Shown here: positions 14,322-63,170 of the stretch, piece by piece
How positions within the stretch are numbered: position 1 is the first letter of the stretch
Layout: every line of letters starts with the position of its first letter
Source: Cymodocea nodosa
Taxonomy: Eukaryota; Streptophyta; Magnoliopsida; Alismatales; Cymodoceaceae
Direction: 5' to 3'
DNA: 64,000 nucleotides
Assembly: GCA_036874045.1 (NCBI GenBank)
Contig: CM072345.1
Span: 11,704,501-11,768,500 of the forward strand
Position numbers and translations under genes: made by a program
Notes under the pieces: generated by a model
Told to the model about the DNA's origin: nothing
What the model saw: only the letters and a program-made list of their open reading frames with translations
Databases searched by the model: none

Positions 14322-15828
14322 ATGGCAACCAGTAGTAGCACAATAACTTCGAACACAATCTAAGATGTGAATCCTATTGGCCCTTATTTTCTACATCCAT
14401 CTGATAATCCAGGAACACCCATCGTTACACAACTCCTTAACTTTGACAACTATGACACATGGAGTATTGCCATACTTATGACCTTGGAGGTTAAAAACAA
14501 GCTTCGATGGGTCTCTGCCTCTACCTAATCATTATACACACCTTTTGAATCATTCAATATGACATAGATGCAATATTATGATAAAATCTTGGCTATATCA
14601 TGTCATTGAACCTGACATTGCTAACAACATTCTCTTCTTTAAAACTGCTTTCGAGATTTGAAAAGAATTAAAGGACAGATATTCACAAAAGAATGTTGCT
14701 ACTGATTTTGCCATTTCTAAGGAACTGTTTGACCTCCAACAAGCTCATAACTCGGTTATAACTTATTTTACTCAATTGAAAAGTTTATGGGAAAAACTTG
14801 ATCATAATAATCTCATTGAACAATGTGGTTGTGGCACTGTCTGCCCTGTTTATAAAACTCTCATTGCCAAAACTGAAAAGGAAACCTTATTTTATTTTCT
14901 GATGGGACTTAATGACAAATTCAGTGTTATCCATAGTCAAATTCTTGTCATGACACCTATGTCCAATATTAGCTATGCCTACTCTCTTGTTTTACAAGAA
15001 GAGAAGCAACAAGAGATTACTGCTCTTCTTATTACAGAGAATGTTACTCTTAATGTGAGAAAAACAAAACAGACCAATGGAAAGAAAGAAACGTTGTACT
15101 GGACTAATTGTAAAAATACAGGCCATACAAAAGAAAAGTGCTTCTGGTTAATAGGGTTTCCACCAAGGCATCAACTACAGAATAAGGTCATTCCTAGGAA
15201 GAATAATCAAAATAAATTTGTCAATAGTGCTGTAATTTCTAAGGAAAACAAGAACACCATTGTTGCCATAAATGAAGGAACCAAAAACAACTTCAATGAT
15301 TTTACCCCTGAGCAGATTGAACTACACAAAATTTTAGCAAAATCTAAAGTCACAGATGCTATTACTTCTAATGTGACAGGTGATTTTTCTTGTTTATCAA
15401 AATTTTTTGATTCTAATGTTTGGATGGCAGATACTAATGCTACACACCATATGACTAATGATAGAAATCTTTTATCCAACATTGCTTCAGTCTCTGATAA
15501 TTCTGGTGTGAAGTTTCTAGAACAATGCAAAGCTGATATTACTGACTTTGGTGATGTAAAATTAACTGATTTTATCACTATGCATGATGTTTTATTAATT
15601 TCCAGTTTTCATGTCAACCTCATGTCAGTAGCTAAAATTACTAAAGAACTTAATTACAATGTCAAGTTTCTATCCAATTATTGTGTTTTTCAGGAACTTA
15701 GCAGCCAACAAACGATTAAGATTACTAAATAGGAGAGAGACTTGTACCTGTTCACTTCAAAATATTCGAAGGATTTGGAACTTCCGGCCTTTAATGCTTC
15801 ATACAATCCTGATTTCACTCTCTAGTGT
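14322..15828 (+). pseudogene. Copia gag-protease polyprotein remnant
   Basis: The reading begins MATSSSTITSNTI, then a TAA, then NPIGPYFLHPSDNPG, the usual N-terminus of Copia gag (DUF4219/UBN2). Further stops interrupt it near 14,528 and 14,660. From about 14,665 the frame is open to a TAG at 15,730-15,732 (YFTQLKSLWEKLDHNN is typical gag), and similarity runs on past it to about 15,825. The zinc knuckle reads YWTNCKNTGHTKEKC, with Trp where the first Cys should be. The protease active site, normally DSGA, reads ADTNATHHMT, so the catalytic Asp is present but the Ser-Gly is lost. The protein would be inactive even without the stops. Confidence 0.75.
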
Positions 15829-17953
15829 TAGGGAGATTTTTGATTTCTTAAAAATACTATAAGTACACAACTGTTTATAATTAACTGACAAGTATAAGTC
15901 GATCCCTTAGAGAGTAAATTCAATTATCAACAAATTGATTGGAATTGCAATTTAATTTAGAGAAATCTCAAATTCAATCCAAACTCATTTCAGTTCTTAC
16001 GTCAATTTAAAGTAATTAAATTTAAGTTCAGAAAGTAGGGATGAAGCATTAAATCTAGAAATGATTCAATGCATAAAATCTAACTTGAGAAGCTGCAATA
16101 CAAAATTTATATTATGATGAATTGATTAATTTTCCAACTATTAAATCTCAAAACACAAATCTACCATGAATCACTCAAATCCTCAATGGAAAATACAAAT
16201 TCAGGTTCAACAAACAAGGGAGTGAAGTTTACTCTATAATGCAGGAATCTTTTTAGCACATTTGTGGGAATTTCCTTTGTACTGTTTATAAATTTAAGCT
16301 ACTCAGATATGCAACTTAAAGTGTTTTCCTGAGATGGTTAATTTGACATATCATCCCTATTATCAATGGGTCATCTAAATAAACTTGCGGTATGAGAATG
16401 TTGATTATTCATTTTTTTTTCTTGGTGAAGAAGGAATAATTGGCCATTGACTACTGATAGCAGCATGCATACTAGTACTGGATTATTTATAAAACTAATT
16501 TTTAAATTATTGCTTAATGCTGAATATTGATGATTGTTTGTAAAATGGTCCTTGAATATTGATGATTTCATTTGGCTAGCCTCAATGATTTATCCTTTTT
16601 TTTTATGGATAGTTGAAAGTTCTTTCCTATATCTCCTTCCTCAAACTCATTCTTAGAGAAATCCTTGTGAACCATCCCCTATTGATTTTTCCCAGGCTTT
16701 AGTGCAAATTTGATGCACTTATGCTTCTTTTGTGAAAATTTAAAGGAAGATCAATAGCATCTTTTTTTCTTGGGAGTTTTTCTATTGCTTTATGGTGGCA
16801 TAATGTGATTGGTTGTCCTTACCATAAATTAGAGTCTTTCTAGGCTCGGTAGATTAAGGTTGGATGGGTGGACCATCCATCCAACAATTGGTTGATGATT
16901 TCTCATGCTATCTGATGGCTTTGATGCTTTGAATACAACTGGTTGTTTCTTGAAGTTAGGTGTTTGGAACTCTTCAAATGAAAGATGTTGATTTTCTGTA
17001 AGGTGATCAAGTAATCCTCATCTTTCTGTTGCTCATTTATTCTCTTGAATAGATCCATCTCAACAAGGTTCAACGTGCTAGTAAGATTATTATTGCATCA
17101 CCATGTTTCTATGTAATTGATTGTCTTTCATTTTTAGCTTGATCACTAGTTCTTCCCATATTTATTAAGGCAGACACCTAGGCACTTGCATATCTTGCCT
17201 TGTTTTGTTATAATTGGATCCCGATCAGATTTGATACCAATTCTAGTAAAAATTCATGTATTTTTAGATGCTAATATTTTTTAAAGGAAAATAAGCTTAA
17301 TTTTTTAATATATTTAGATGTTACTGTGATCTTATTACATTTTATTGTTATCTTATTATTTTAGTTATATTTCAAGGTTATATGGTGTTGAGTAATAAGA
17401 AATATATATATGCTTAAATTGCATTTAATAATATATAATATAAATAACAAAAAAGCAAGAATAAAAAACAAAATTTCCTGAATGGCACCTAGGGACCTAG
17501 GCTCCCAAGGCATTGGAGGTGCCTGGATACCTTAAAGTATGGTTCTTCCACAGTTCCACCGTAGACCATTGTATTCCCTCCTTTTTCCTGATTTTATCAT
17601 GATTTCTTTACCATCACTCAAAAAATGCAAATGCTTTTATAAATGGCCCACTCTTGTTTGATATATGAGAAAATACGATCAGCATTTTTCTTTCCTAAAA
17701 AAAGCTTTTCCTTGGGTAAAAAGTGGACTAAAATTTCTTGCACCATAAATGCAAAATATTCATGGAATGTACAACAGTGGTATGTTATGGAATGAATGGT
17801 ATGGAAAATCAAACATAATGTAATTCTGAACCTTATGAATGTTAATACGTGGAAATGATTTTGTGTGGCAAGAAACTCTACAGGCATTCAGATTTCAAAA
17901 GAGAAAAAGGAGATTGAAAAACCAACACATTTACTGCATTCGGCAATGTTTAC
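15829..17953. other. Intergenic or old repeat, no gene seen
   Basis: AT-rich. The start (about 15,850-15,910, containing AAGTCGATCCCTTAGAGAG) resembles the leader region common in plant LTR elements, but no coding domain follows. I see nothing further I can name. Confidence 0.4.
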
Positions 17954-19450
17954 TCTTTTCAAAATATTGACTCTATCTTGCAGTCCATAAACAGCTGTCA
18001 TTTTTCTATTCATCAATTTCATGAGAATTGTGGGATGACAAAGCATGGACTCCACCCTCCTCGATGCCATCAAACAGTGCAGCTCTATTGCTTCAGTAAT
18101 GTCTGCATTCCTGGAAGCAAACATTTAAAATTTCATAATGCATAATACAAAACAAGATGAAGCAGTGACATACGATATATAGAAATCAAACTTTGCAGAG
18201 TAATTCATTCCTCTACAGAAACTACAGATGGCTAGAGAATCATAAAGTGGGGAGACGTGTGCCCATGCTAGAAACTTGGAGAAACTTCAACTTAAAGTCT
18301 AAAATGTGAATGTCTTTCATCTTTTTGTTATGAAAAATGGTTTAATAGAAACTTAGACTAGCAATTACTTGCCTCCTCGCTATAGTTACTATGTCAATTT
18401 CTAAAGACTTTGTATGGATTGCTATTTTCTTGTCATGTCTTCAATTTCTACACAATCTTATTCATATAGATTAAATCCTCATAATTTGCATCTACTTGTA
18501 AATTTACCAAACATTTAAGCTCAATATATTATTAAAAATAAACCAAAAGAAAAACAAAATAACACAAAAGAAATTTGTTCTTTTGTGATTCTAGCATATG
18601 ATTATGCATGTGAAATTAAAATATTCAATTAATTTATTTAGTTTGTGTCACCATTGAATAGGAAATCTACCTTCTACATTCTAGATCATCAAGAAATCAT
18701 AAAGGCATAAGTCTTATGTTTACACTTGCATAAATGCTCATCTCATAACATGATGAAATTTATCTTGTCAAAAGTGATTTTCTTCTCTTGCTTAAAATCC
18801 ATGCTAAAATTGATAATGAGTAAAATTGCAAATGGATTTTTATCAATTACCATAATAAAGAAAAACTAGACCAATGATTAAAGAAAAAGTAGACCGTAAT
18901 TGAAAATTTTCATCTGCATGCAACATTAAAAAGTAGTTATAGACAAGAATGTGCTTTAAGGTCTAAAGGCCATTGCTCTAATCTTGATAAAATATGAGGC
19001 AGATTATTATCTTCAAATGATACTATTTCTACTAGATTATTACATGAAAGATCAAACCGTGCAAAGCACGTGTTTATTGTCTATTTCCACAAAACATCTG
19101 GATTATTTTCCCGTGCACGAATATGGCACACGGAGAGGTCTTAAGCAAGTTGTACTGGAAGCTGCATTCAAAGCTTCACTTCCTTAAATCACCACTTCGC
19201 AAACTACAATTATTCATATACTGCGAAATGAATAGGGTCGATCAAAACGCACAACATATAAATGCGAAATACTTCCACCGCTTCTCAGCTCTGACGAAAG
19301 CCTCGGATTTACATCACACACAAAATAAATAAATAAATAAATAAACCTCAAGGAAACTGTTTGCAATTCTCAGAAAACAAAGGAAATAGAACACATACAA
19401 GAGATAACGAGAAAAGGGAAAGATCACAAGAAGGAGAAATTCCTTGTCCT
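17880..19450 (-). pseudogene. Decayed second copy of the Bet1-like SNARE 5' exons
   Basis: The minus strand at 17,954-18,102 is a recognisable copy of the Bet1 exon found intact at 24,804-24,957. It reads NRAALFDGIEEGG, then HNSHEIDE followed by a TAG, then, after a frameshift, LQDRVNILKR. An early TGA also lies next to the splice acceptor. Homology to the other copy continues through flanking intron DNA (17,880-18,370 against 24,730-25,170) and through the 5' region (19,090-19,430 against 25,350-25,640), with about 700 bases of unrelated DNA at 18,371-19,085. Where the other copy has ATGAAGTCGAGGAG followed by GT, this one reads AAAGAGGACAAGGAA, so both start codon and donor site are lost. 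It is a non-functional tandem duplicate; no copy of later exons was found. Confidence 0.75.
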
Positions 19451-21390
19451 CTTTCCCCTCCCTTCCGTCGGGATCTCCCCGAGTTTGAGAAGTTCCTCTG
19501 CGAGCTTCCGCCGAATCAGAAACAAACAATATCCGAAAGTTTCAGAGCTCTGTGCTCCATTCGTAAACGCCAGCGTACCAGGTACTCGGCTTTGCGCTCC
19601 ATTCAGCCATCGTCATTAGTCCTGCTCGTTTCTCGCATTATTCAAAGCGCTTTGGTTTTGCCAGTTTTTTATAATGGTAGTTTCATTGGAAGCCATTGTG
19701 GAGAATTTCTTGAACTTATTTTTTATTTTACTTATACATACGTGAGAAAGTAAAAAAAAACTATATAGAATGACTTATTAACTATAATTACATAATAGAA
19801 TATTCATTTTAATCAAGTAAATTTCATTCTTTAATGTAGAGGTTTAAAACTTCTCATTTTGTTAAATTTCATCCATTAAATTTGTACTTGAAATAACTTA
19901 AAGAATATAACTTAGATTGAATTAAAATTTTAATACATATTAGATTGTATCTTAGATTCACTAATCATATAATCAAATTTAAACCTTAAAAATAATAAAA
20001 TAATACTTTCAAACCTAATAAAAGTATGTTTTAACTTATTCCTTACATTTGAATCTTTTCAATATTAATTTTTTACATGTAACAAAATTTGCATCCCAAC
20101 ATCTAAAACCATAAAGCATGATTGAGAGAACAATTTTATAGAATTTAAACCATTTATGAACTTTAAAGAAATGTTTAAGACATTTTATTAACTGGTTTAC
20201 TAACCGATAATGACAATTAAATCACTTTGAAACATCTATCAAACTATTTTAAATCAAAGTGTACATTTAATTCAATTTCAAAAACCTTTATCATGCCAAC
20301 CAACTCCGCAACAAATAACTTTGGAAGTGAGACACAAGACGACCATGACATGGATTGAAGCTTTTTTTTGACAACGGAAGTAATTTTACACTTATCAAAT
20401 ACGGTTACAGTTGGTTGCATGGACTGAAGCTTTGGCACAAAAAGATCATGCCAGCAATGATGCTGAACTAAAACTTAGGAACACGTAAGAAAAATCGACA
20501 CAAGGATGTTGGTCATTTCATGTCGCCCTTCCAGGTTAAATTCATGGAGTCCTGTTGCCTATTGGATTCCCTCGACCACTGAAACTGTTGAAAAAAAGAC
20601 ATGGCATTTTAAAAATCATCTGTCTGAAATGATATTAAGTTGGAAGACTGGTATATATAAAACCAATAAACTTCAAAAATTTTACTATAAGATATGATAT
20701 TGTAAACTTTAAAATTTAGTTATAAGACATTAAATTCTTTGAAACATCACTTAACCGACTAAACATAATTTAAATGATAAATTTGATTCCTTATATAATC
20801 TTATAATTAATTTACATTTAATTATCAAATACTATAATTTAATTATATTACATTTAATAAGATTATAATCAACCAAAAGAGACCTATGTGTGCTCAAATT
20901 ACCAACAATTCTCAGGGTTTGGTTATTCAAAGACTAAGCCCTTATTTACGACTTTAGGATCATCATTTGAAGGCTACAATTTAAACAAGAATCTATCATA
21001 AGAATAAAAAAATAGTACACCAGTAACAAAATTGGGTTACCAACATGGTGGCACTCCACGTAACATCATCCCTAACAACATTTTTCCTAGCTAAAGGTAT
21101 GTGGCCCTACGTATCTCTTCAGGGTCCGCAGGGGAATAAAAACACAAGCAAGTCTCCTCTAACTTTGATGTTCATTAACAGCTACTAAAATTATATAACA
21201 TGACAATGTGATAATGTGACATTCAGAGAACTTCTCACATGATAGCAAATTATGTACAACATAGTGTAGGACTTACATACCTTCCATTCACAGTAATCGT
21301 CAACCGTGCTATACGAATTGATTAAAATAAGGAAATTCCAGAATCAGATGGACTTTCTTTACTGTTAACCATGGACCACAAAACTTGATG
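19451..21390. other. Intergenic, 3' of the chimeric gene
   Basis: AT-rich DNA with no domain seen. The final few hundred bases before 21,391 should hold the 3' UTR of the minus-strand gene. An (AAAT)n tract lies at about 19,323-19,345, just inside the duplicated block. Confidence 0.5.
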
Positions 21391-22989
21391 CTACAACTGC
21401 CAGTCCACGCATTCATCAAAATCTACACTACTGCTACAATCCAACAGGGCAGTTCGCTGGTGCTCATACCTACATATATAGTTTAAGCCAACTAGTAGCT
21501 TACAAATTTCTGCCTCCGTCTTCTCCTTGTCGGCAAAATATAAAGTCTGGAGAAGTAGAATATTCGTTTTCAAAACAATTCGTTGTTGCTCAAAATTTTG
21601 TTCTGTTTGCCATCGGATCATGTTATGTGCCATAGGAGCAAGCCAAGTCAAGAGATTATCTAGTGTTAACCTCCAATCATGAGCTAGAGGTGCATCATAA
21701 ATTGCCAAATTCTTAACATAGGACTTGAGACTTTTCCTCAGAGACAATCTCAAGCTCATTGGTAACATTTGATAGAGATCATCTCTAGCTTCCTCTCCAA
21801 CCAAATGGGGATATCGAAGGAACTTCTCTATAATAATTATAATATTTGAATAATGGAGAGCTAATGACGAACCCCCGAGAGTGGAGTGTGCAGCATACAT
21901 CGTCACTCTACTTTTTGGTCCAAATTGAAACAATCCACATCGGCCAAACCTTGATTGTTTCTGTTCTCCATTAGAGGACAAGCTTATAGGAGACTGGCTC
22001 ATGTGATTCTCACTTTCAAAATGTTCATCACCATCCTCCCAGGAAGTAGAGCTGCTCGAACTAAGGCATCCCATAAAAATCCTTCCAGGACTAGCACCAC
22101 AAGGGAATCTGAGATTGTCATCAGACATGTTAACAACAGGTCTTTTTGGTTGAACCCAACCTGATTTACGATCACTGACTTCTGTGTACAATGATCCTGA
22201 AACAGGCAAACAATTATGATTTGGAACAAACTTACGAGACAGTTGTCTGCTCTCATCTGGGGAATAATGAGGTATTAGAGCAGAATTCCCAAACACAACA
22301 TGGATCCTGTCATATATGGTACATACTACCCTGGCCATCAGCCCCACAATCTTATCATAGGTCTGATTCCACAATGATGTTTCCCTAAGATGCCTCACAT
22401 CATGATGCTGCCACTGAATCTTCTGTCGGAATGCCTGACGAGTCTCCTCATGATATTGGGCCAAGTGGGATTTTTTCACCCCCTGCTCCAACTCATTCAA
22501 AACACCAAGTTCACCATAGAGGCTAGCTGTTGAGCTCACATACCTCTCCATCTTTCTAATCGTTCTGTCCATGTCCTTAATGAGGAACCTCAATTTCCCA
22601 ATCTCAATGCGACCTTTCAAAAGATCAGTATATACATGCTCAAACCCCAGCAGAGCCTGCTCAGTGCACCTCTTTCCTAATCTTGATACCAGAGCAGCAA
22701 CACTGTTTAAATCATCAAGCTTTTCAGCAAGCACAAGCTCTAAGAGATAGGATTCATCTGTAGAGACTAGAGTTCTAATAGCATGGGACTTTAGCACGTC
22801 ATTGTGGAGGGCAGAAATTTCAGTCTCAGAAAGAGACTTGTGAAGCTGAATGGTTTTGGACATGGCATTTGCAACCTCAAAAGACAGTATGCCAATTATA
22901 TCATCCTTTGGACTGGAGGCAGATTGAGATTTTGGATCCTTTGGTAAAACATGCTTGAAATAATTGTGGTGTGACTTAGTTTCAAACAC
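21391..22989 (-). CDS. DUF3475 + DUF668 exon of the chimera
   Basis: One uninterrupted 532-codon frame. After the six Bet1-derived residues come DUF3475, a coiled-coil-like middle with KDMDRTIRKMERYV and NELEQGVKK, the family signature SLWNQTYDKIVGLMARVVCTIYDRI, a Ser-rich linker and the DUF668 domain, ending VDFDECVDWQL. The order and the absence of introns agree with the At5g04550-type members of the family. The N-terminal myristoylation-type leader those proteins often carry (MGNQV...) is not here: the family position just before LKHAL is occupied by VFETKSHH. The first in-frame ATG lies about 42 codons into the exon, inside DUF3475, so a protein started there would lack part of that domain. 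Confidence 0.9.
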   Translation of the reverse strand: MFETKSHHNYFKHVLPKDPKSQSASSPKDDIIGILSFEVANAMSKTIQLHKSLSETEISALHNDVLKSHAIRTLVSTDESYLLELVLAEKLDDLNSVAALVSRLGKRCTEQALLGFEHVYTDLLKGRIEIGKLRFLIKDMDRTIRKMERYVSSTASLYGELGVLNELEQGVKKSHLAQYHEETRQAFRQKIQWQHHDVRHLRETSLWNQTYDKIVGLMARVVCTIYDRIHVVFGNSALIPHYSPDESRQLSRKFVPNHNCLPVSGSLYTEVSDRKSGWVQPKRPVVNMSDDNLRFPCGASPGRIFMGCLSSSSSTSWEDGDEHFESENHMSQSPISLSSNGEQKQSRFGRCGLFQFGPKSRVTMYAAHSTLGGSSLALHYSNIIIIIEKFLRYPHLVGEEARDDLYQMLPMSLRLSLRKSLKSYVKNLAIYDAPLAHDWRLTLDNLLTWLAPMAHNMIRWQTEQNFEQQRIVLKTNILLLQTLYFADKEKTEAEICKLLVGLNYICRYEHQRTALLDCSSSVDFDECVDWQL

Positions 22990-25661
22990 CTAGCAAGAGA
23001 CTTTCTTGTCATCACTAGCATAGAAAAAGAGGTATTCAAGAAATAAGTCAATGAAATTACCATCTTAAAGCGATCCATGGTTCCAGAAAGCATTCCCTTG
23101 GAAGCATCCATCACATTAAGCTGTGATTAGAAGTTCAGGATAAGAAAATTAGATAGCTATTTTTAAATGATATTTTTGTTGAAAGAAAAAAGTGTAACAT
23201 ATTATCACGGTACCATTCTATCTGGTGCACAGTTATGAGTCTACACCTCGTAATACTAAAGCAGGAAAGTGGTCACACCGTCACAGTTTGTTTGAACTTT
23301 AGAAGGATTATACAATATATGGTAAATTAGAGAACCACTCAAGCTGGTAATGGGTCTATATTGCATCTAGGAAGGCTAAAACAGTATAAAATCAATTATG
23401 AAACATGATCAACACGTCCACACACAAAACATCTTTTTACTATTGGAGCAAAAAATACAAGGATTGAAGAGCTAATGTCAAGGGAACCTATTTCAAACGC
23501 CATTACATCATATTTCCCTGTTACTTCTTAAATGCATTGACAGGGTCCAAGCAAAGTTGGCATTAATACTAACCATCCACGTTCTTTCTTTTTTCAATTT
23601 TCATTGGTATTGATATAAGCAGAAGCAAATATTGTTGCTAGACTACACCACACAAAAAGGAAAATATCCACAAGATCCAGCCAAAATGATATTATGGATA
23701 TCAACAACAGGTTAAAAGACTCTAATTGTTTCACTGAGACAAAATAGTACAACAATTATAAATTTCTAATGGTGGTTTTGCAAGCTACATACGGCTTCCT
23801 ATACCAACAGCTGTATTCCATATCTGCCAAAAATATCAAGAATTTTGAAAAAATATAGGAAATTCCACCCACTAGTACTAAAATTATCTGTTTATTTTCT
23901 TGGAGAAAATGCAGCATTTAAAACCTATTAAATAATTTGGTGTTAATAAAGAAAACTTGAGCATCATGTCGTTGGCAAAAAAAAGGTCACAAAAATGACT
24001 ACTGGCTTATTCAAACAAACAGCAACGGATATTTACATTATAAAATGTGAACTGCTTGTGCAAGACTCTGGATACAATTCAATTAGTGACTAAGCACAAG
24101 TAAAGGTTAATTGGATGAGTGTGTAAAAGTTCATAGAAACACAGGGTGACAATTGATACCGGAAAATATCTAACTCCACAATGACCTCTTATGGATGCCA
24201 CAATATATTACTATAATATAGAATCATTATTTGAATAAATGAACAAAATGGCATGAACCAGAAAAGGAACTGCACTAACGACATGAAAGAAATGAATTGG
24301 CACGACAAGGAGAAGATGTAACAGAAACTAGTAGAAAAGAACTTCAGCAAAACTGACCATGTACATGTCCATACAGCTACTAGCAGAACTACCTTTTTAA
24401 AGCATTCATGCTTCCCCGAGGGTGTGATTGTTTTCTAGGTATAATCTTACATCATAACAGATTCCAAAGATCCTTGGGGAGGCAAGTAAAATTTCAGGAG
24501 GAAATACTTTTAAAAGCAAAGTATGAGCATTTCTGGCATGTAAGTTGATGAATAGGTCAAAATAAGTAGTTGTGCAATAAGTAGTAGGAAATGAAAGAAG
24601 CCGTTTTATTCCAAGTGTTAGTTTTCAGTTTCCAGAATATGGAGAATCAACTAATAAAGTATAATTCAGAACCACGCAGAGGCTAATATATGGATGTTAC
24701 ATTGCAGAAAACCTAACCCAGAAGACGTTAAGGGCATTCAGATTTCTAAAAAGAAAAATTAGATTTAAAAACTAAAACGTCAACTGCAGTTCGCAGTGCT
24801 TACTTTCTTCAAAACGTTGACTCTATCTTGCAGTTCACCAAGAGCTCTATCATTTTCGTTTTCATCAATTTCTTGAGAATTATAGTTTGAGCACGTGCGG
24901 ATTCCATCCTCCTCGATGCCATCAAACACCGCACCTCTATTGTTGCTTCGGTAATCTCTGAAAGCAGACAGCTAAACACTTGTGATAAACAACATAAAAT
25001 AAGATGAGACGGTTAAGGACAACATATAGAAATTAGAATTTGTAAAGTAATCGAGTTCTGCACAGAAACTACGTATGTCTAGAAAATCACGAGGCGTGGA
25101 TATAAGTGTCCACGCTTGAAAACTTGGAGAAACTTTTAGTTAATGCCCGAAATATGGAAATACTTGCAGATACTATGAGCTATAATACGTGAAAAATATT
25201 GCAGATACTATGAGCTATAATACGTGAAAAATATTGCAGATACTCTGAGCTATGATACGTGAAGAACATGATATGTCTTCCAAGTTTTAATGTACACCTT
25301 ATTCCAATAGAGATTTAGATTAGTAATCACCATACATCAGGATTACCGTCATGTGCACGGGAGGGCACATGAAGAGGTTTTAAGCAAAGCTCAACTAAAA
25401 GATCTTCCGCAACCGAAGCATTACTTGCTTAGTTAGCACTTCACAAACTACAATCATTCATGCGAAGTGAATGGAAGGACTGATCAAAATGAGCAACATA
25501 AAAACGCAAGAAACATTTTCCTCCGCTACTCAACTCTGCCGAAAATCCTGAAAAAAAGAGAGAGAGGTTTTTTCCAATTCTCAGATCTTACGGGAAATGG
25601 AACACACAGAAGAAATCAGAGGAAAGGAGAGAGATCCGGCAACGAACCTCCTCGACTTCAT
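21391..25661 (-). CDS. Chimeric gene: Bet1-like SNARE exons fused to a DUF3475/DUF668 (PSI1-like) exon
   Basis: My model has exons 25,648-25,661, 24,804-24,957, 23,061-23,120 and 21,391-22,989. All have GT-AG introns and all stay in frame, giving 608 residues. Exon 1 starts MKSRR. Exon 2 (DYRSNNRGAVFDGIEEDGIR ... LGELQDRVNVLKK) and exon 3 (MDASKGMLSGTMDRFKM) are those of Bet1-like SNAREs such as BS14a, which act in ER-Golgi vesicle fusion. Exon 4 begins VFETKS, the start of the usual last Bet1 exon, but instead of the membrane anchor it runs into NYFKHVLPKD and then DUF3475 (residues about 105-165, IGILSFEVANAMSK). DUF668 follows (about 448-545, LALHYSNIIIIIEKF, LPMSLRLSLRKSLKSY). DUF668 proteins include the phytosulfokine-pathway PSI1 group. 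The DUF668 part has no ATG of its own before MSK. The exon for the middle of the SNARE helix is not found. Two separate genes or an aberrant pseudogene are alternatives. Confidence 0.75.
25164..25268. repeat. 35-bp minisatellite, three copies
   Basis: The unit TTGCAGATACTATGAGCTAT plus 15 more bases occurs three times at 25,164, 25,199 and 25,234, the last copy with a few substitutions. It lies in intron 1 of the chimeric gene and is absent from the duplicated copy near 18.3 kb, so it arose after the duplication or was lost there. Confidence 0.9.
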
Positions 25662-47145: not shown

Positions 47146-47996
47146 TCAGGATGAGGCCATTTAATTAAAACCAGTAAGCTCAAATATCCTTGTTCATGCA
47201 TGTACTCTAGCTTGGAGGTTTCTCCCAACATCTCCACTATTACATTTGAAGGGCAAGGTGCTTCTTAATTAAGAGGGGTGGCTTTGCCTTGTTAGCATCT
47301 TATTTCCCAACCGTGTTGAGTGGCCAACAAGAAGACATGACTGAAACCATGGCAAAGGTAGAAGGAACTGCTTGCCAGTTTCTCGTGCCGGTAGCCATTT
47401 CCCACGTCTAGTCTCCCCGGCCGCCTTCATTCAAATAATTAAATCCCACATTTAGCTTTCATAAGCAACAGGTTCCAGACACCTAATCCATGGTCACTGG
47501 TAATTCTCTTATTGCAAAATTAAAGCTCAGGCTTGTAGTCACGTTTCCAATTAGTGATGGTCTTTTGGCTCGCTCATAACATATATATATAATTGCTGTA
47601 TTTAGGATTGGGCGTCAAAAAAAACCACCACATATATGAAAGGGATGAATCCAATTATAAAGAGGACACAGATGGAGTGGGTTTGTGTACGCTTCTTTGT
47701 CGTTTGAGGCGTATTGAGTGGAATCTCAAACAAGTATAAAAAGAAGAAAAGAAACTGTTGTTGAAGTGAGAGGAGGGGGCCCAATTCAAAAGGAAAAATA
47801 TTCTAATATGCATGCCATCTAGGAGACCGATTGGGATTAATTATTCACCAAAATTATGTTTATAAGGTCAGGTGGTGGCTAGTGCTTTCCCTCAAGCAAT
47901 ACCAATACTTGTACTAGCTACTTACTACTTCTGCTGCTGCTCCCAAGCGATTAACCCTACCACTCACCCCCAATCCCTTGCCCATCGTCCACCAAA
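45188..47996. other. Intergenic and upstream region of the LBD29-like gene
   Basis: AT-rich. It holds a (CA)n-(TA)n microsatellite at 47,101-47,143. Two GAGACA auxin-response-type hexamers lie at 46,531 and 46,654, about 1.3-1.5 kb before the LBD start, and a TATA-like TTTATAAGG near 47,860 lies about 140 bases before the ATG. The hexamers are short enough to be chance. No other gene is seen. Confidence 0.45.
47101..47143. repeat. (CA)n-(TA)n microsatellite
   Basis: About seventeen CA units followed by five TA units, 0.85 kb upstream of the LBD29-like ATG. Confidence 0.9.
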
Positions 47997-49064
47997 ATGA
48001 CAGGTTTCGGTTCTCCCTGCGGTGCTTGCAAGTTCCTGAGGAGGAAGTGCGTCAAGGGTTGTGTCTTCGCTCCCTACTTCTGTCACGAGCAAGGTGCAAC
48101 CCATTTCGCCGCAATTCACAAGGTGTTTGGGGCGAGCAACGTCTCCAAGCTCCTCATGCACCTCCCGGTGCCGGACCGCTGCGAGGCCGCCGTCACGATT
48201 TCCTATGAGGCCCAAGCCAGGCTTCAAGATCCCATCTACGGATGTGTGTCTCACATCTTTGCCCTCCAACAGCAAGTGAGGATTTATAAATATCCCATCC
48301 ATACCCCAACTTATTAACTACATACATATATATCTGTGTGTGTGTGTGTATGTATACATATATATATTAGAGCGCGTCAACAAATTAAAGTCGGTAATAA
48401 TCAGCATGCCATCATTGTTGGCAAGTACAGTGTTTAACAGATACTAGTCATTCATGTCTTGGACCATATATTTCCGTTTGGTACAAGTCACATCCTTGTG
48501 GATGCATGGGTTGAGATGACTGTGAACTAATTTCTCTCTGATATTAATCATAACTATTATTTGTATTTATGGTTCAATTGATCTCTTATTCCGATGCAGG
48601 TCGTCAATTTACAAGCACAGCTGGCCACGCTCAAGCAGGCACAGGCGGCTCAAATAATGGCCAACGGTTCTACTTCCAACACCTCATTCGCCCAGGAAGA
48701 CAAGCCGTCCCACGGGAAATTCCAGAACTACCAAGAAAATTTGATGGGGATTTACGTTAACCACGATGAATTGAAGAACATTCAGGCGATTCTGCCGGCC
48801 AACCCGTCGATGAATTCCGATAACAACACTTCCTCCTACAATGGCGGATGCACACCTGACTCAAACTGCAGTTATGCTCAAGCTTCTCAGGGGTATTGCT
48901 CCAACGTAACTGCTGACCATGGGTTCGTCGACCCATTTGGTACCGAGGACAATGCTACTTCTTGCGCCATGGATTCTTTTGATTCGCAGATGAATATTAG
49001 GAAATCTGCATACCAAGACTATGGGGATCTCCATTCCGTAACATATGGGTACCTTCGCCATTGA
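47997..49064 (+). CDS. LBD29: LOB-domain transcription factor, LBD29/CRL1-like (class I)
   Basis: Exons 47,997-48,275 and 48,600-49,064 join after the codons for ALQQQ, the intron position typical of class I LBD genes, giving 247 residues. The LOB domain spans about residues 7-107. It includes the zinc-finger-like C block ([12 protein letters not shown]-x2-C-x6-C-x3-C), the GAS block ([17 protein letters not shown]) and the Leu-rich coil continuing [29 protein letters not shown] and [11 protein letters not shown] are characteristic of the LBD29/CRL1 branch, and the tail [10 protein letters not shown] with a final YGYL resembles rice CRL1/ARL1. These nuclear factors are induced by auxin through ARF proteins and start lateral or adventitious (crown) root formation. 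The gene is intact and points towards the LBD16-like gene. Whether it is strictly the LBD29 orthologue needs a tree. Confidence 0.95.
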
Positions 49065-54225: not shown

Positions 54226-55093
54226 TCATCGGTTTCTCATCATCCTCAGAGCCAAATCCTCCAGCTCTCCGAGGCCACTCCCCTGAGCTCTCTTCTTGAA
54301 GCACGGTGGTGGCGGCAAAGGAACCCCCTCCTCTTTCACAATCATCTCCTGCGTCAGTGACGCGACGCCACCGTGGTCTAGGGAGCTTTGCTGATGACTG
54401 GGCTGATGACCATAATGTGCACAAAACTGAGACATGTGACCTTCATGGGGTCCGGTGCTCTGTTGCCAGTGTGGGCCGTAAGCCCACTGTGCCTTAAGCT
54501 GCATCAGCTGTGACTGCAAGCTTGCCACCTGCACATGTCCAACGAAGGAATGTACCACAACACCAATTGACAAATATCACAGAAAGAAGTTCCTTTGCTG
54601 GCTATAGAATTAATTAGCATGCGCGGCATTGGTCTAGCGTATTCATCAAACCAAATCACATGATTTCCTTCCTTCCTTCCTTCCTTCTTCTATACTTGAG
54701 GAGTTCAAACATGTATGCGTCGGATCTTGTAACAACAAATTAAACAAAAGTAGCAACAAGTGGAATACGACACACACACATGCTAGAGAAAGGTGATGGA
54801 GGTTTAATTACCTGCTGCTGTAAAGCGAAGATATGAGCGACGCAACCGTAGACGGGATCCCGGATTCTGGCCTGAGCCTCGTAGGCGATGGTGACCACGG
54901 CCTCGCACCGGTAATGGTGGGGTACATGCAGAAGAAGCTTTGACACGTTGCTGGCGCCGAACACCTTGTGGATCGCGGCGAACCGGGCGGGTCCCTGGTC
55001 GGAGCAGAAGTAGGGAGCGAAGACGCAGTCTTCCGTGCACTTGCGTCTCAGGAACTTGCACGCCCCACATGGCGATCCCGCTCCACTCGCCAT
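54226..55093 (-). CDS. LBD16: LOB-domain transcription factor, LBD16-like (class I)
   Basis: Exons 54,812-55,093 and 54,226-54,528 join after ALQQQ, at the same place and phase as the other LBD gene, giving 194 residues. The C block [20 protein letters not shown], the GAS block [20 protein letters not shown] and the coil [14 protein letters not shown] are complete. [26 protein letters not shown] and [12 protein letters not shown] point to the LBD16/LBD17 side of the family, which works with LBD18 and LBD29 downstream of ARF7/ARF19 in lateral root founder cells. The C-terminal part is His- and Gln-rich with an acidic end. It is convergent with the LBD29-like gene, 5.2 kb apart, which suggests an old tandem duplication. 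A TTCC repeat lies in the intron and a GGA repeat just upstream of the ATG. Confidence 0.93.
54664..54686. repeat. (TTCC)n microsatellite in the LBD16-like intron
   Basis: Nearly six TTCC units inside the 283-base intron. Confidence 0.9.
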
Positions 55094-55129
55094 GGTCGGA
55101 AAGCAAAACGTAGATGATGATCACCACCA

Positions 55130-60300: not shown

Positions 60301-63170
60301 AAAGCACATTTTTAAGACATAAAATTAACACTTGATCACAAAAATATCATTGTTAAAGAAAAATTTTCACATGCATGCGTCTAGGTTTTCAACATCAATG
60401 TTGTGTAAGACTTCTTTGAAAAATTGACACATGTTGGACTTCGGAGGAAATGTCACTGAAGTTTATCAAAAACATGAAAGTTCACAAAAATACCCAAATA
60501 CATATGAATTTCGGTATGAAAATTTATGACAAGCTAAAGTACTCAATCATGCACATCCATAAATATGTCATTAAAACACACCAAAGATTGATACTAGCAT
60601 GCCGGACAAGAAGAAATTATTTGAAAAACAATGATCCAAAAATTATGAAAAATGTAGAATTAACCATACAATGCAGCCTAAATCTATCTTCATCACAATT
60701 CTGAAAATGTTTTGAAAAACAGAAATTAAATAAATAAACATTTGCATCTGCAGATTTTATCTTGGATGCATGTAATACAATGTTATTTATGCTTTTACAT
60801 AAAATCTGCCATTTAAAATTAATTTCATTAAATTTCTGAAAATATTTTAAACATAGAAAATAAGGTGTTTCTCTCTAAGGTGTCAAACAAGTGCTCACTC
60901 AATTGTGGCAAGATGGTAATCCTAATTTTGTTGATTTAATATTTGACAAAGTAGGGGGTTTATGCACTTGGAATCTAAGGAAAAGGAATTTGAGGGAATC
61001 AAATTCCCTTTTACTAAGCAAAATATAAGAGAGTGTACATTTCATACGAGGAAAGTAAGAGAAAGTAATTCCTTTACTTTCCTAAGTATAAAAAAGTCCA
61101 AGAATTGAATTCCAATCCTTCTACTTGAGAATTGGATGGAATTCACCACACCATCAACATTCCTTACACATGCAATATCAGCACAACTACAACACCACCA
61201 CAAAGACCACTCGAGCAATGCGACCATACCTCCATTTGATGGAGCAACAGCTCATCCATGAGGTCGCCCAATAGCTTTTGGGCAAACAATGGAGGGACCA
61301 TCTTGTCATAATGTGAGACCAGTGTATAATGTTAGAGAGTCATTAAGGTACAAGTGTATTTGAAAGATCAAGAAACAAGTTTACCATGGTGTTATCCTTA
61401 AAAGGTTAAAGAATGCACCAATTAGGAAAGAAGAATTAATTAGGATAGAAGAACTAAAAGAATTAGAGAAAGGCCTAAGTTAGAAATTGTGAAAAAAGAT
61501 TTAAATTTATGTAATTTAATCAAAGATTTAACCACAGATAGAAATAGGTGCGAAAAAAAGGACTTATGTGAATGACCCCACGTAATGCAATTATAGCTCA
61601 AATTGTTATTGTTGTTGAGGAAATATGTTTACTATGGTGACTTATGTGATTGGCCTTTTTTGACATTCAAACAAGCTCCCACAAGACAGCATTCACAAAA
61701 GGCATCCCATGAAAAGCAACTCATCCCAAAAAAGCACCACCAAAAAGGACTACACTACCAAAAAAATATTTGATGAATCCTCTGAAGCTAAGACAATTGA
61801 CAAAAATATCTGCAAACAAGGCTGACCCATGTCTCAACATGACATCTACACACAAAATCCTCTACATGAAACCCATTAACTACAAACACACACAAAAAAC
61901 CATTCATAGTGTTATTTCAATATGAAAGTAGAAGCCCAAAAATCTCTACCAGATGCAGTTTTCTTTTAATTTGATTATTTTTTCATGTTTATTATTTTTA
62001 ACAAAGACATGTTAGAAATAGCAATCAACATACACGACCAACTGGGGGCACATGCATGCGACAATATTGAAAGTTGAATCAATACAATAACAATTAGTGA
62101 AGAAACGAGAGGCATAAAGTAGTATTATTATGAAGAAAAAATCTAAAACAATAATTAGAAATAACCAGTGGGAACAAATTTACCTTCATTTTAAAATCAT
62201 CCTCGTCCTTTATAATGTGAGGATGGATGGAAGGAATTAATGTGAAGAAACGGTTACTGGCATTGATGATCAAACTTTCTTTTTCAGTACAGGAATACTT
62301 AATTTTATCATTTAAAATGTTCTGTATCTCTGTAAGCGCTTCAAAACCTATGAGATGAAAAGAAAAATTAAAGAATGATTATAATACATGATATAGCCAA
62401 GGCATCAAGCTTTCCTTCTTGAATGAAGAGTACAACTTAATATTATTTTCTGTATATGGAAGTAAAAAAAGAACTACCATATTGTGTTCTAAATAATCTA
62501 CAATAAACATGACTGATCTCTTTTCAGCAGGAGATTAACTGGAGGGGAAAAAAGGTGTCAACATTGGGAATATTCTCACAAAACCAGCATACCTTTCTGA
62601 ATATTCTGCTTGCTTAATTTTCCAAGTGGCATTTCAGACATATTAATTTCGAATTCCATCATAGCAGCTCTGAGTAACAGGAAATCAGTCAAGAAATTTC
62701 TAAAATTAAAGTTCAAAAATCATTCAAAATCAACACCTGTATGTTTCAACATTGAAAAGCATTTTCATCAAATCTGCTAATTTTGGAGCCAATGTGCTCT
62801 TCTCATTACTTCTGTCTTGCTTCTTAGGCATTTGTTTGACCCCATAGTCCTAGAATCCATAAGACACTGTCAGTCCATAGATACCAAAATGGATACTAGC
62901 AACAAAATTGGAAACACCGCAGCAGAACATACAATATCTAGTGGAAAGAATCTTCCAGGTTGTTTCTCAAAGTTTTGCCTCTGTTCCCATGCTTCCCATG
63001 GATTACCTGTCTTCTCAAGAAATAAATGTTTGAATTGTCGTATTGCATCAGATTTTGACATCTCTTCCAGTTTAATTCCACCAATCCTATCATTTCCCAC
63101 ACGCCCCCACTTCCGGAATACATAGCAATCAGATCCCTTATCCTCCTCAATAACTTGAAGTATGTAATAG
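57398..63170 (-). CDS. PARP1: Poly(ADP-ribose) polymerase 1, C-terminal ten exons (partial)
   Basis: Exons 62,933-63,170, 62,737-62,849, 62,593-62,669, 62,184-62,347, 59,939-60,130, 59,751-59,859, 58,599-58,681, 58,392-58,529, 57,999-58,181 and 57,398-57,445 join in frame to 447 residues. The first exon carries the WGR domain ([27 protein letters not shown]). The helical regulatory domain follows ([34 protein letters not shown]). The catalytic domain has the H-Y-E set: His in LLWHGS (split between two exons), Tyr in [16 protein letters not shown] and Glu in [10 protein letters not shown]. The ending [12 protein letters not shown] and the block [17 protein letters not shown] are those of PARP1, not PARP2. 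The enzyme uses NAD+ to build poly(ADP-ribose) on nuclear proteins at DNA breaks. The zinc fingers and BRCT domain lie past the window end. Intron sizes run from 67 to 2,053 bases. No defect is seen. Confidence 0.93.
60131..62183 (-). other. PARP1 2.05-kb intron
   Basis: The largest complete intron in view. A segment starting GGGGGTTTATGCACTTGGAATC near 60,954 resembles the left end of the inverted-repeat elements in the 33-36 kb intron, but I found no matching right end. Confidence 0.5.

Follow-up and report, generated by a model that had tools for sequence, protein, structure and literature searches.

The locus joins Bet1-like exons to a DUF3475/DUF668 exon

We analysed a 64-kb stretch of the Cymodocea nodosa genome (374.6 Mb in 28 contigs), C17:11704501-11768500, referred to below as the window, with positions counted from its first base. 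On its minus strand lie four exons with GT-AG splice sites that join into an open frame of 608 residues, in which the front end of a Bet1-like Qc-SNARE, a protein of vesicle transport, precedes a DUF3475/DUF668 protein. An in-frame splice of Bet1-like exons to a DUF668 exon had been proposed in the original prediction, and the splice sites and open frame bear it out. The exon model given there joins in frame as described, but it omits a remnant exon: the 608-residue frame is open only when this remnant is skipped, and its inclusion stops translation at codon 61. The parts of the locus are as follows.

25661..25648, minus strand: exon 1, Bet1 exon 1 (MKSRR, with the start codon), aligning to exon 1 of the intact Bet1 gene on contig C13
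24957..24804, minus strand: exon 2, Bet1 exon 2 (DYRSNN...VNVLKK), 75.7% DNA identity to the C13 gene over 300 aligned bases and 80 Bet1 homologues
23255..23214, minus strand: remnant of a dead Bet1 middle exon, from a profile scan and the C13 alignment, in which 12 of 42 bases differ
23120..23061, minus strand: exon 3', Bet1 exon 3' (LNVMDASKGMLSGTMDRFKM), with four in-frame AUGs, from the C13 alignment and AUG contexts
22989..21391, minus strand: exon 4, the DUF3475/DUF668 exon, 532 residues, stop included
22989..22972, minus strand: VFETKS, the first 18 bases of exon 4, of Bet1 last-exon origin; similarity to C13 ends at 22972
22971..21391, minus strand: DUF3475/DUF668 body, one open frame with its stop, truncated at the 5' end by about 14 leader codons, from Pfam, 614 homologues and leader comparison

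The front exons derive from a Bet1 duplicate

In a protein search with residues 1-82 of the fusion, all 80 candidates were Bet1-like (E 6.9e-25 to 5.2e-16), many of them carrying the source names Bet1-like SNARE or t-SNARE. Pfam returned no SNARE model on the Bet1 part, its three matches being unrelated and below cut-off. The homologues and a DNA alignment to the intact gene on C13 confirm the Bet1 identity first proposed for these exons. The C13 gene, the one intact Bet1 in the genome, has five exons (14, 151, 57, 60 and 90 nt) that encode 123 residues, and exons 1, 2 and 3' of the fusion match it, splice phases included. Similarity takes in the region of exon 1, then exon 2, parts of intron 2, the middle exon, exon 3', intron 3 and 18 bases at the start of exon 4, and ends at 22972, directly past VFETKS. 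Because the homology runs through these codons and stops there, VFETKS is, judged from this alignment, inherited Bet1 DNA. Its earlier reading as Bet1 residues also agrees with its presence in 74 of the 80 Bet1 proteins, as against VFETK in 0 of 120 listed DUF668 proteins. An origin of VFETKS in the DUF668 leader (MVAET...) was ruled out by that absence and by the C13 similarity, which covers the intron, the acceptor and all six codons.

A similar neighbour, which we take to be an AT-hook/AHL gene, follows Bet1 on both C13 and C17 (83% DNA identity over 873 columns), so the two Bet1 regions look like duplicates. Behind the fusion, at about 17.8-19.6 kb, lies copy B, another Bet1 front end in a ruined state, which the original prediction did not include. 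Its upstream region is closer to the sequence upstream of the C13 gene than anything found for copy A, the Bet1 copy of the fusion.

17786..18186, minus strand: exon 2 region of copy B, the second and ruined Bet1 front end, 74.3% DNA identity to C13, with one TGA and one TAG inside
19478..19588, minus strand: copy B upstream region, 81% DNA identity to the upstream sequence of Bet1 on C13

The Bet1 part is damaged

The middle exon, 57 nt long in the C13 gene, is reduced at the fusion locus to a remnant of 42 nt, which has lost 15 nt by deletion and contains an in-frame TAG. In a scan of the intron it reached a profile score of 19.5, none of 300 shuffles exceeding 11.0, and it keeps its splice sites, acceptor TTTAG and donor GTACCG (GTACCA in C13). 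The same exon is missing from two Musa records, which gives its skipping a parallel in annotation. One residue of the C13 middle exon aligns, weakly (E 0.04), with the glutamine of the SNAP-25 stretch TQNRQIDRI, which we take to be the central layer of the SNARE motif; with the aligned exon dead, the fusion has no SNARE motif that includes this layer.

A profile scan of the window, run without a shuffle control, found no convincing Bet1 transmembrane tail; the best match (score 5.0) contains a stop and lies on the plus strand at 60883. Across the genome a Bet1 tail was found in the C13 gene only, leaving the fusion copy with no C-terminal anchor and its upstream exons with no separate intact Bet1 last exon, the alternative that had been named as fatal to the predicted fusion. 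With its central-layer exon dead and its membrane anchor missing, this Bet1 copy is broken as a SNARE and should not act as one.

The retained Bet1 exons have also evolved loosely. The Bet1 part of the fusion differs from the C13 protein at 20 of 75 residues, and judged by 78 Bet1 proteins 16 changes fall on the fusion side and 4 on the C13 side. At 35 conserved Bet1 positions the fusion keeps 27 and the C13 protein 33. The ratio of nonsynonymous to synonymous divergence (dN/dS) between the two is 0.39 (dS 0.37, dN 0.145). In the neutrality test 59 of 75 residues were kept, a retention with P 0.29, 0.008 and 0.00005 at branch lengths of 0.12, 0.18 and 0.24, so that a verdict of neutrality hinges on the branch length chosen. 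The chance of no stop in the Bet1 part was 0.50 at 0.09 and 0.31 at 0.18, falling to 0.12 and 0.015 with frameshifts counted.

The DUF668 body is conserved and lacks its own start

Exon 4 matches DUF3475 (E 1.2e-22) and DUF668 (E 5e-32) in Pfam, both above cut-off. When about 5.8 billion proteins were searched, the 7827 candidates included 614 homologues at E <= 0.001; the best 120 of the 614 were listed, the nearest being 62-64% identical to the body. We call the subfamily AT3G23160-like after the name 'like AT3G23160' of P0103. Trees were built from 121 sequences and from 26 sequences, the latter including 21 of the 120 listed homologues. In both trees P0004 and the fusion group together (support 0.998 and 0.999, the second from the smaller tree), within a wider clade containing four aroid/duckweed proteins (Colocasia, Anthurium, Spirodela) that has support 0.479 in the larger and 0.853 in the smaller tree. 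In the 26-sequence tree the fusion falls with the AT3G23160-like subfamily, and the genome's other DUF668 genes lie apart from it. P0004 begins with its own MVAEQSW, and the fusion is therefore probably younger than their split. No second AT3G23160-like gene was found in the genome with two queries, fusion exon 4 and Colocasia P0002. Four more loci clearly carry DUF668, one each on C11 and C6 and two on C18; with 35-55% identity they lie outside the subfamily. Further matches on C13, C5, C2 and C11 are weak and short.

Of the 120 homologues, 106 have the family leader with a start of their own (MV.[ED]). The fusion has none: its leader resumes at NYFKHVL, with about 14 residues including the start gone. 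The HHNYFKHVL that follows VFETKS resembles the later DUF668 leader, [LF]KH[AV]L occurring in 54 of 115 leaders compared. Within the first 80 residues of 91 of the 120 AT3G23160-like proteins there is also an MG..VS stretch, presumably resembling an N-myristoylation start, which the fusion has lost. A TAG stands immediately before exon 4 in that exon's own frame, in which the first AUG is residue 119, behind the conserved GILSFEVA, in which all 8 conserved columns are kept. For the domain to be intact, translation must therefore start within Bet1 sequence. This agrees with the earlier claims that the DUF668 part lacks its own ATG and leader and would depend on the Bet1 start; of the leader, the first part is lost.

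Among the 120 homologues 137 columns are at least 98% invariant, and the fusion keeps 128 of them, two of the nine misses being lost leader residues. At 0.236 its tip branch ranks 11th in length among 121 and is not extreme. Under neutral change an exon of the same length would be expected to contain 3.3 stops at 0.05 substitutions per site and 5.6 at 0.09, with a chance of zero stops of 0.25 at 0.02, 0.04 at 0.05 and 0.005 at 0.09. The undamaged long frame had been read as a sign of selection. This holds for the DUF668 exon but is weak for the 76 Bet1 codons, given their no-stop probability at 0.09, and the intact frame argues for selection mainly on the DUF668 half.

Capture of a start and promoter as the most likely account

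The joint itself can be described directly: a Bet1 duplicate was cut inside its last exon, past VFETKS, and joined to an AT3G23160-like body cut about 14 codons into its leader. We consider it most likely, with a probability of roughly 0.6, that the locus is a chimeric gene formed by capture of a start and promoter, in which the 5' end of the Bet1 duplicate fronts a constrained DUF668 protein with predicted expression and the leader has lost its SNARE function. Probably the SNARE segment serves as a leader only passively, and the captured front end is probably used to get the DUF668 body read. The locus would be transcribed from the old Bet1 promoter, and the dead middle exon would be skipped in at least part of the transcripts. 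Translation could then begin at the original Bet1 ATG if the remnant is skipped, or at one of the four AUGs of exon 3' (one of them in ACCATGG) through a downstream promoter or reinitiation; either start would yield a working DUF668 protein, with about 7 to 82 residues of Bet1 origin as its leader.

We favour this account because the joint is in frame with GT-AG sites, Bet1 DNA runs through VFETKS, and no second AT3G23160-like gene was found. It is further favoured by the retention of near-invariant columns in an exon that under neutrality should carry stops, by the conservation of GILSFEVA although only a Bet1-derived AUG can include it, and by the parallel that the Musa records offer for skipping of the middle exon. 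Several points weigh against it. The fusion transcript is a prediction from the sequence. The region upstream of fusion exon 1 resembles that upstream of the C13 gene weakly (61% over 283 columns), which leaves an active promoter putative, and the remnant, having both splice sites, could be included with its early stop. The fusion's share of kept invariant columns, 0.934, is the lowest of 121 (all others are at least 0.942), though it rises to 0.948 without the two leader columns. Finally, the joint carries no date, and the frame may be intact because it is young and not because selection has kept it so. A more far-reaching form of the capture account is doubtful: that the only AT3G23160-like gene found depends wholly on the captured SNARE exons for its promoter and its start, with the dead middle exon serving as a poison cassette whose skipping gives full-length protein and whose inclusion gives an early end, so that splicing sets the protein level.

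The main rival, possible but clearly the less probable, is a decaying gene: the last DUF668 copy, recently orphaned behind a dead Bet1 duplicate, would have lost its start and perhaps its promoter, with decay pending. The missing date of the joint and the lowest share of kept columns are compatible with this, as is the decay of the Bet1 part, with its dead middle exon, missing tail and excess of changes over the C13 side. Against it, the 532-codon frame is fully open, which would be improbable under neutrality except at low divergence, and ten of the 121 tip branches are longer than that of the fusion.

The original prediction proposed instead that the SNARE and DUF668 parts form a functional fusion, with a targeting or regulatory role for the Bet1 segment. 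The Bet1 exons are in frame, and their residue retention exceeds the neutral expectation at a branch length of 0.18, though not at 0.12. A working segment of this kind is nevertheless not supported, in view of the dead central-layer exon, the missing anchor and the loss of 8 of 35 conserved positions (2 of 35 in C13), and the open Bet1 frame is likely enough to have persisted by chance; we regard this reading as unlikely. Misassembly of two unrelated genes is more improbable still: the joint rests on one assembly, but it lies within a contig of 16 Mb with reading frame and splice phase preserved, and the rest of the genome yielded no further AT3G23160-like copy.

As to how the joint arose, a retrocopy inserted into the Bet1 last exon is possible. 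No convincing Bet1 tail lies behind exon 4, and 22900-23130 and 20000-21390 have just two words of at least 9 bases in common, both of 9 bases. One A8 run occurs about 1 kb behind the exon 4 stop. The DUF668 paralogue on C11 is also one open frame, so the absence of introns is no argument for retroposition. In three species the DUF668 and Bet1 matches lie on contigs of equal size, namely Macleaya (2,100,833; P0105/P0180), Magnolia sinica (73,752,208; P0016/P0140) and Linum tenue (72,476,498; P0017/P0188); in roughly 15 other species found in both lists they do not, as read by eye across differing assemblies. An old neighbourhood of the two genes, with origin of the fusion by deletion between neighbours, is possible, as a lead only.

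Comparison with known genes

With Bet1-like Qc-SNAREs, to which Arabidopsis BET11 and BET12 belong (PMC5430320), the fusion shares exons 1, 2 and 3', splice phases and VFETKS; it differs by the dead middle exon, the missing tail and the lost conserved positions. With AT3G23160-like proteins, part of the wider PSK SIMULATOR family, it has both domains in common, but their own start and about 14 leader residues are replaced by Bet1 sequence. Wheat Sr43 is a kinase fused to DUF3475 and DUF668 (PMC10260397) and likewise has this unit behind the coding sequence of another gene. Its partner, however, is a kinase and was tested by mutants, whereas here the partner is a broken SNARE front end known from sequence. 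In four Oryza species 310 fusion genes were reported, and fusion is a frequent source of new plant genes (PMC9199173); these likewise unite two parental coding sequences in one frame but, unlike them, the present fusion has no unfused DUF668 parent that we could find in its genome.

Neither 'fusion' nor 'chimeric' occurs in the main text of a rice DUF668 paper (PMC6969926). No Bet1-DUF668 fusion was seen among the matches listed in literature searches on DUF668, PSK SIMULATOR, BET1 and chimeric genes, nor was the combination found in the protein database of about 5.8 billion entries, within the reach of the word filter. A search with residues 1-91 among proteins of about the fusion's length gave one match in 11 candidates, Linum grandiflorum P0121 (834 residues), which has a complete Bet1 at its end behind a PF05024 protein, presumably Gpi1, and not DUF668; it is perhaps a merged gene model. 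Provided that the remnant exon is skipped, the locus shows the open in-frame joint with usable splice sites expected of a chimeric gene. It thus belongs to a known kind, plant chimeric genes, and is unusual mainly by its pairing.

Surroundings of the locus

A genome search with the 3' flank matched two repeat-like stretches at 39 places besides itself (40 of 566 candidates scored); these stretches, 19650-20005 and 20700-20890, recur across the genome as many partial copies. An open frame of 356 aa (14662-15732, plus strand), which we take to be part of a copia-type element, lies between copy B and the AT-hook-like gene. Elsewhere in the window two similar genes in opposite orientation, 47955-49064 (plus) and 54740-55120 (minus), are 72% identical over 269 bases and are presumably LBD transcription factors.

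Significance

Both breakpoints are placed to about a codon, and an intact Bet1 gene in the same genome is available for comparison. Whether or not the locus is expressed, a functional SNARE fusion should not be claimed from sequence. If it is not expressed, it would represent gene loss caught early. If it is expressed, a conserved and apparently single-copy gene would have survived the loss of its start by taking the front of a spare duplicate, and the locus would offer a natural case of a DUF3475/DUF668 protein with a new N-terminus.

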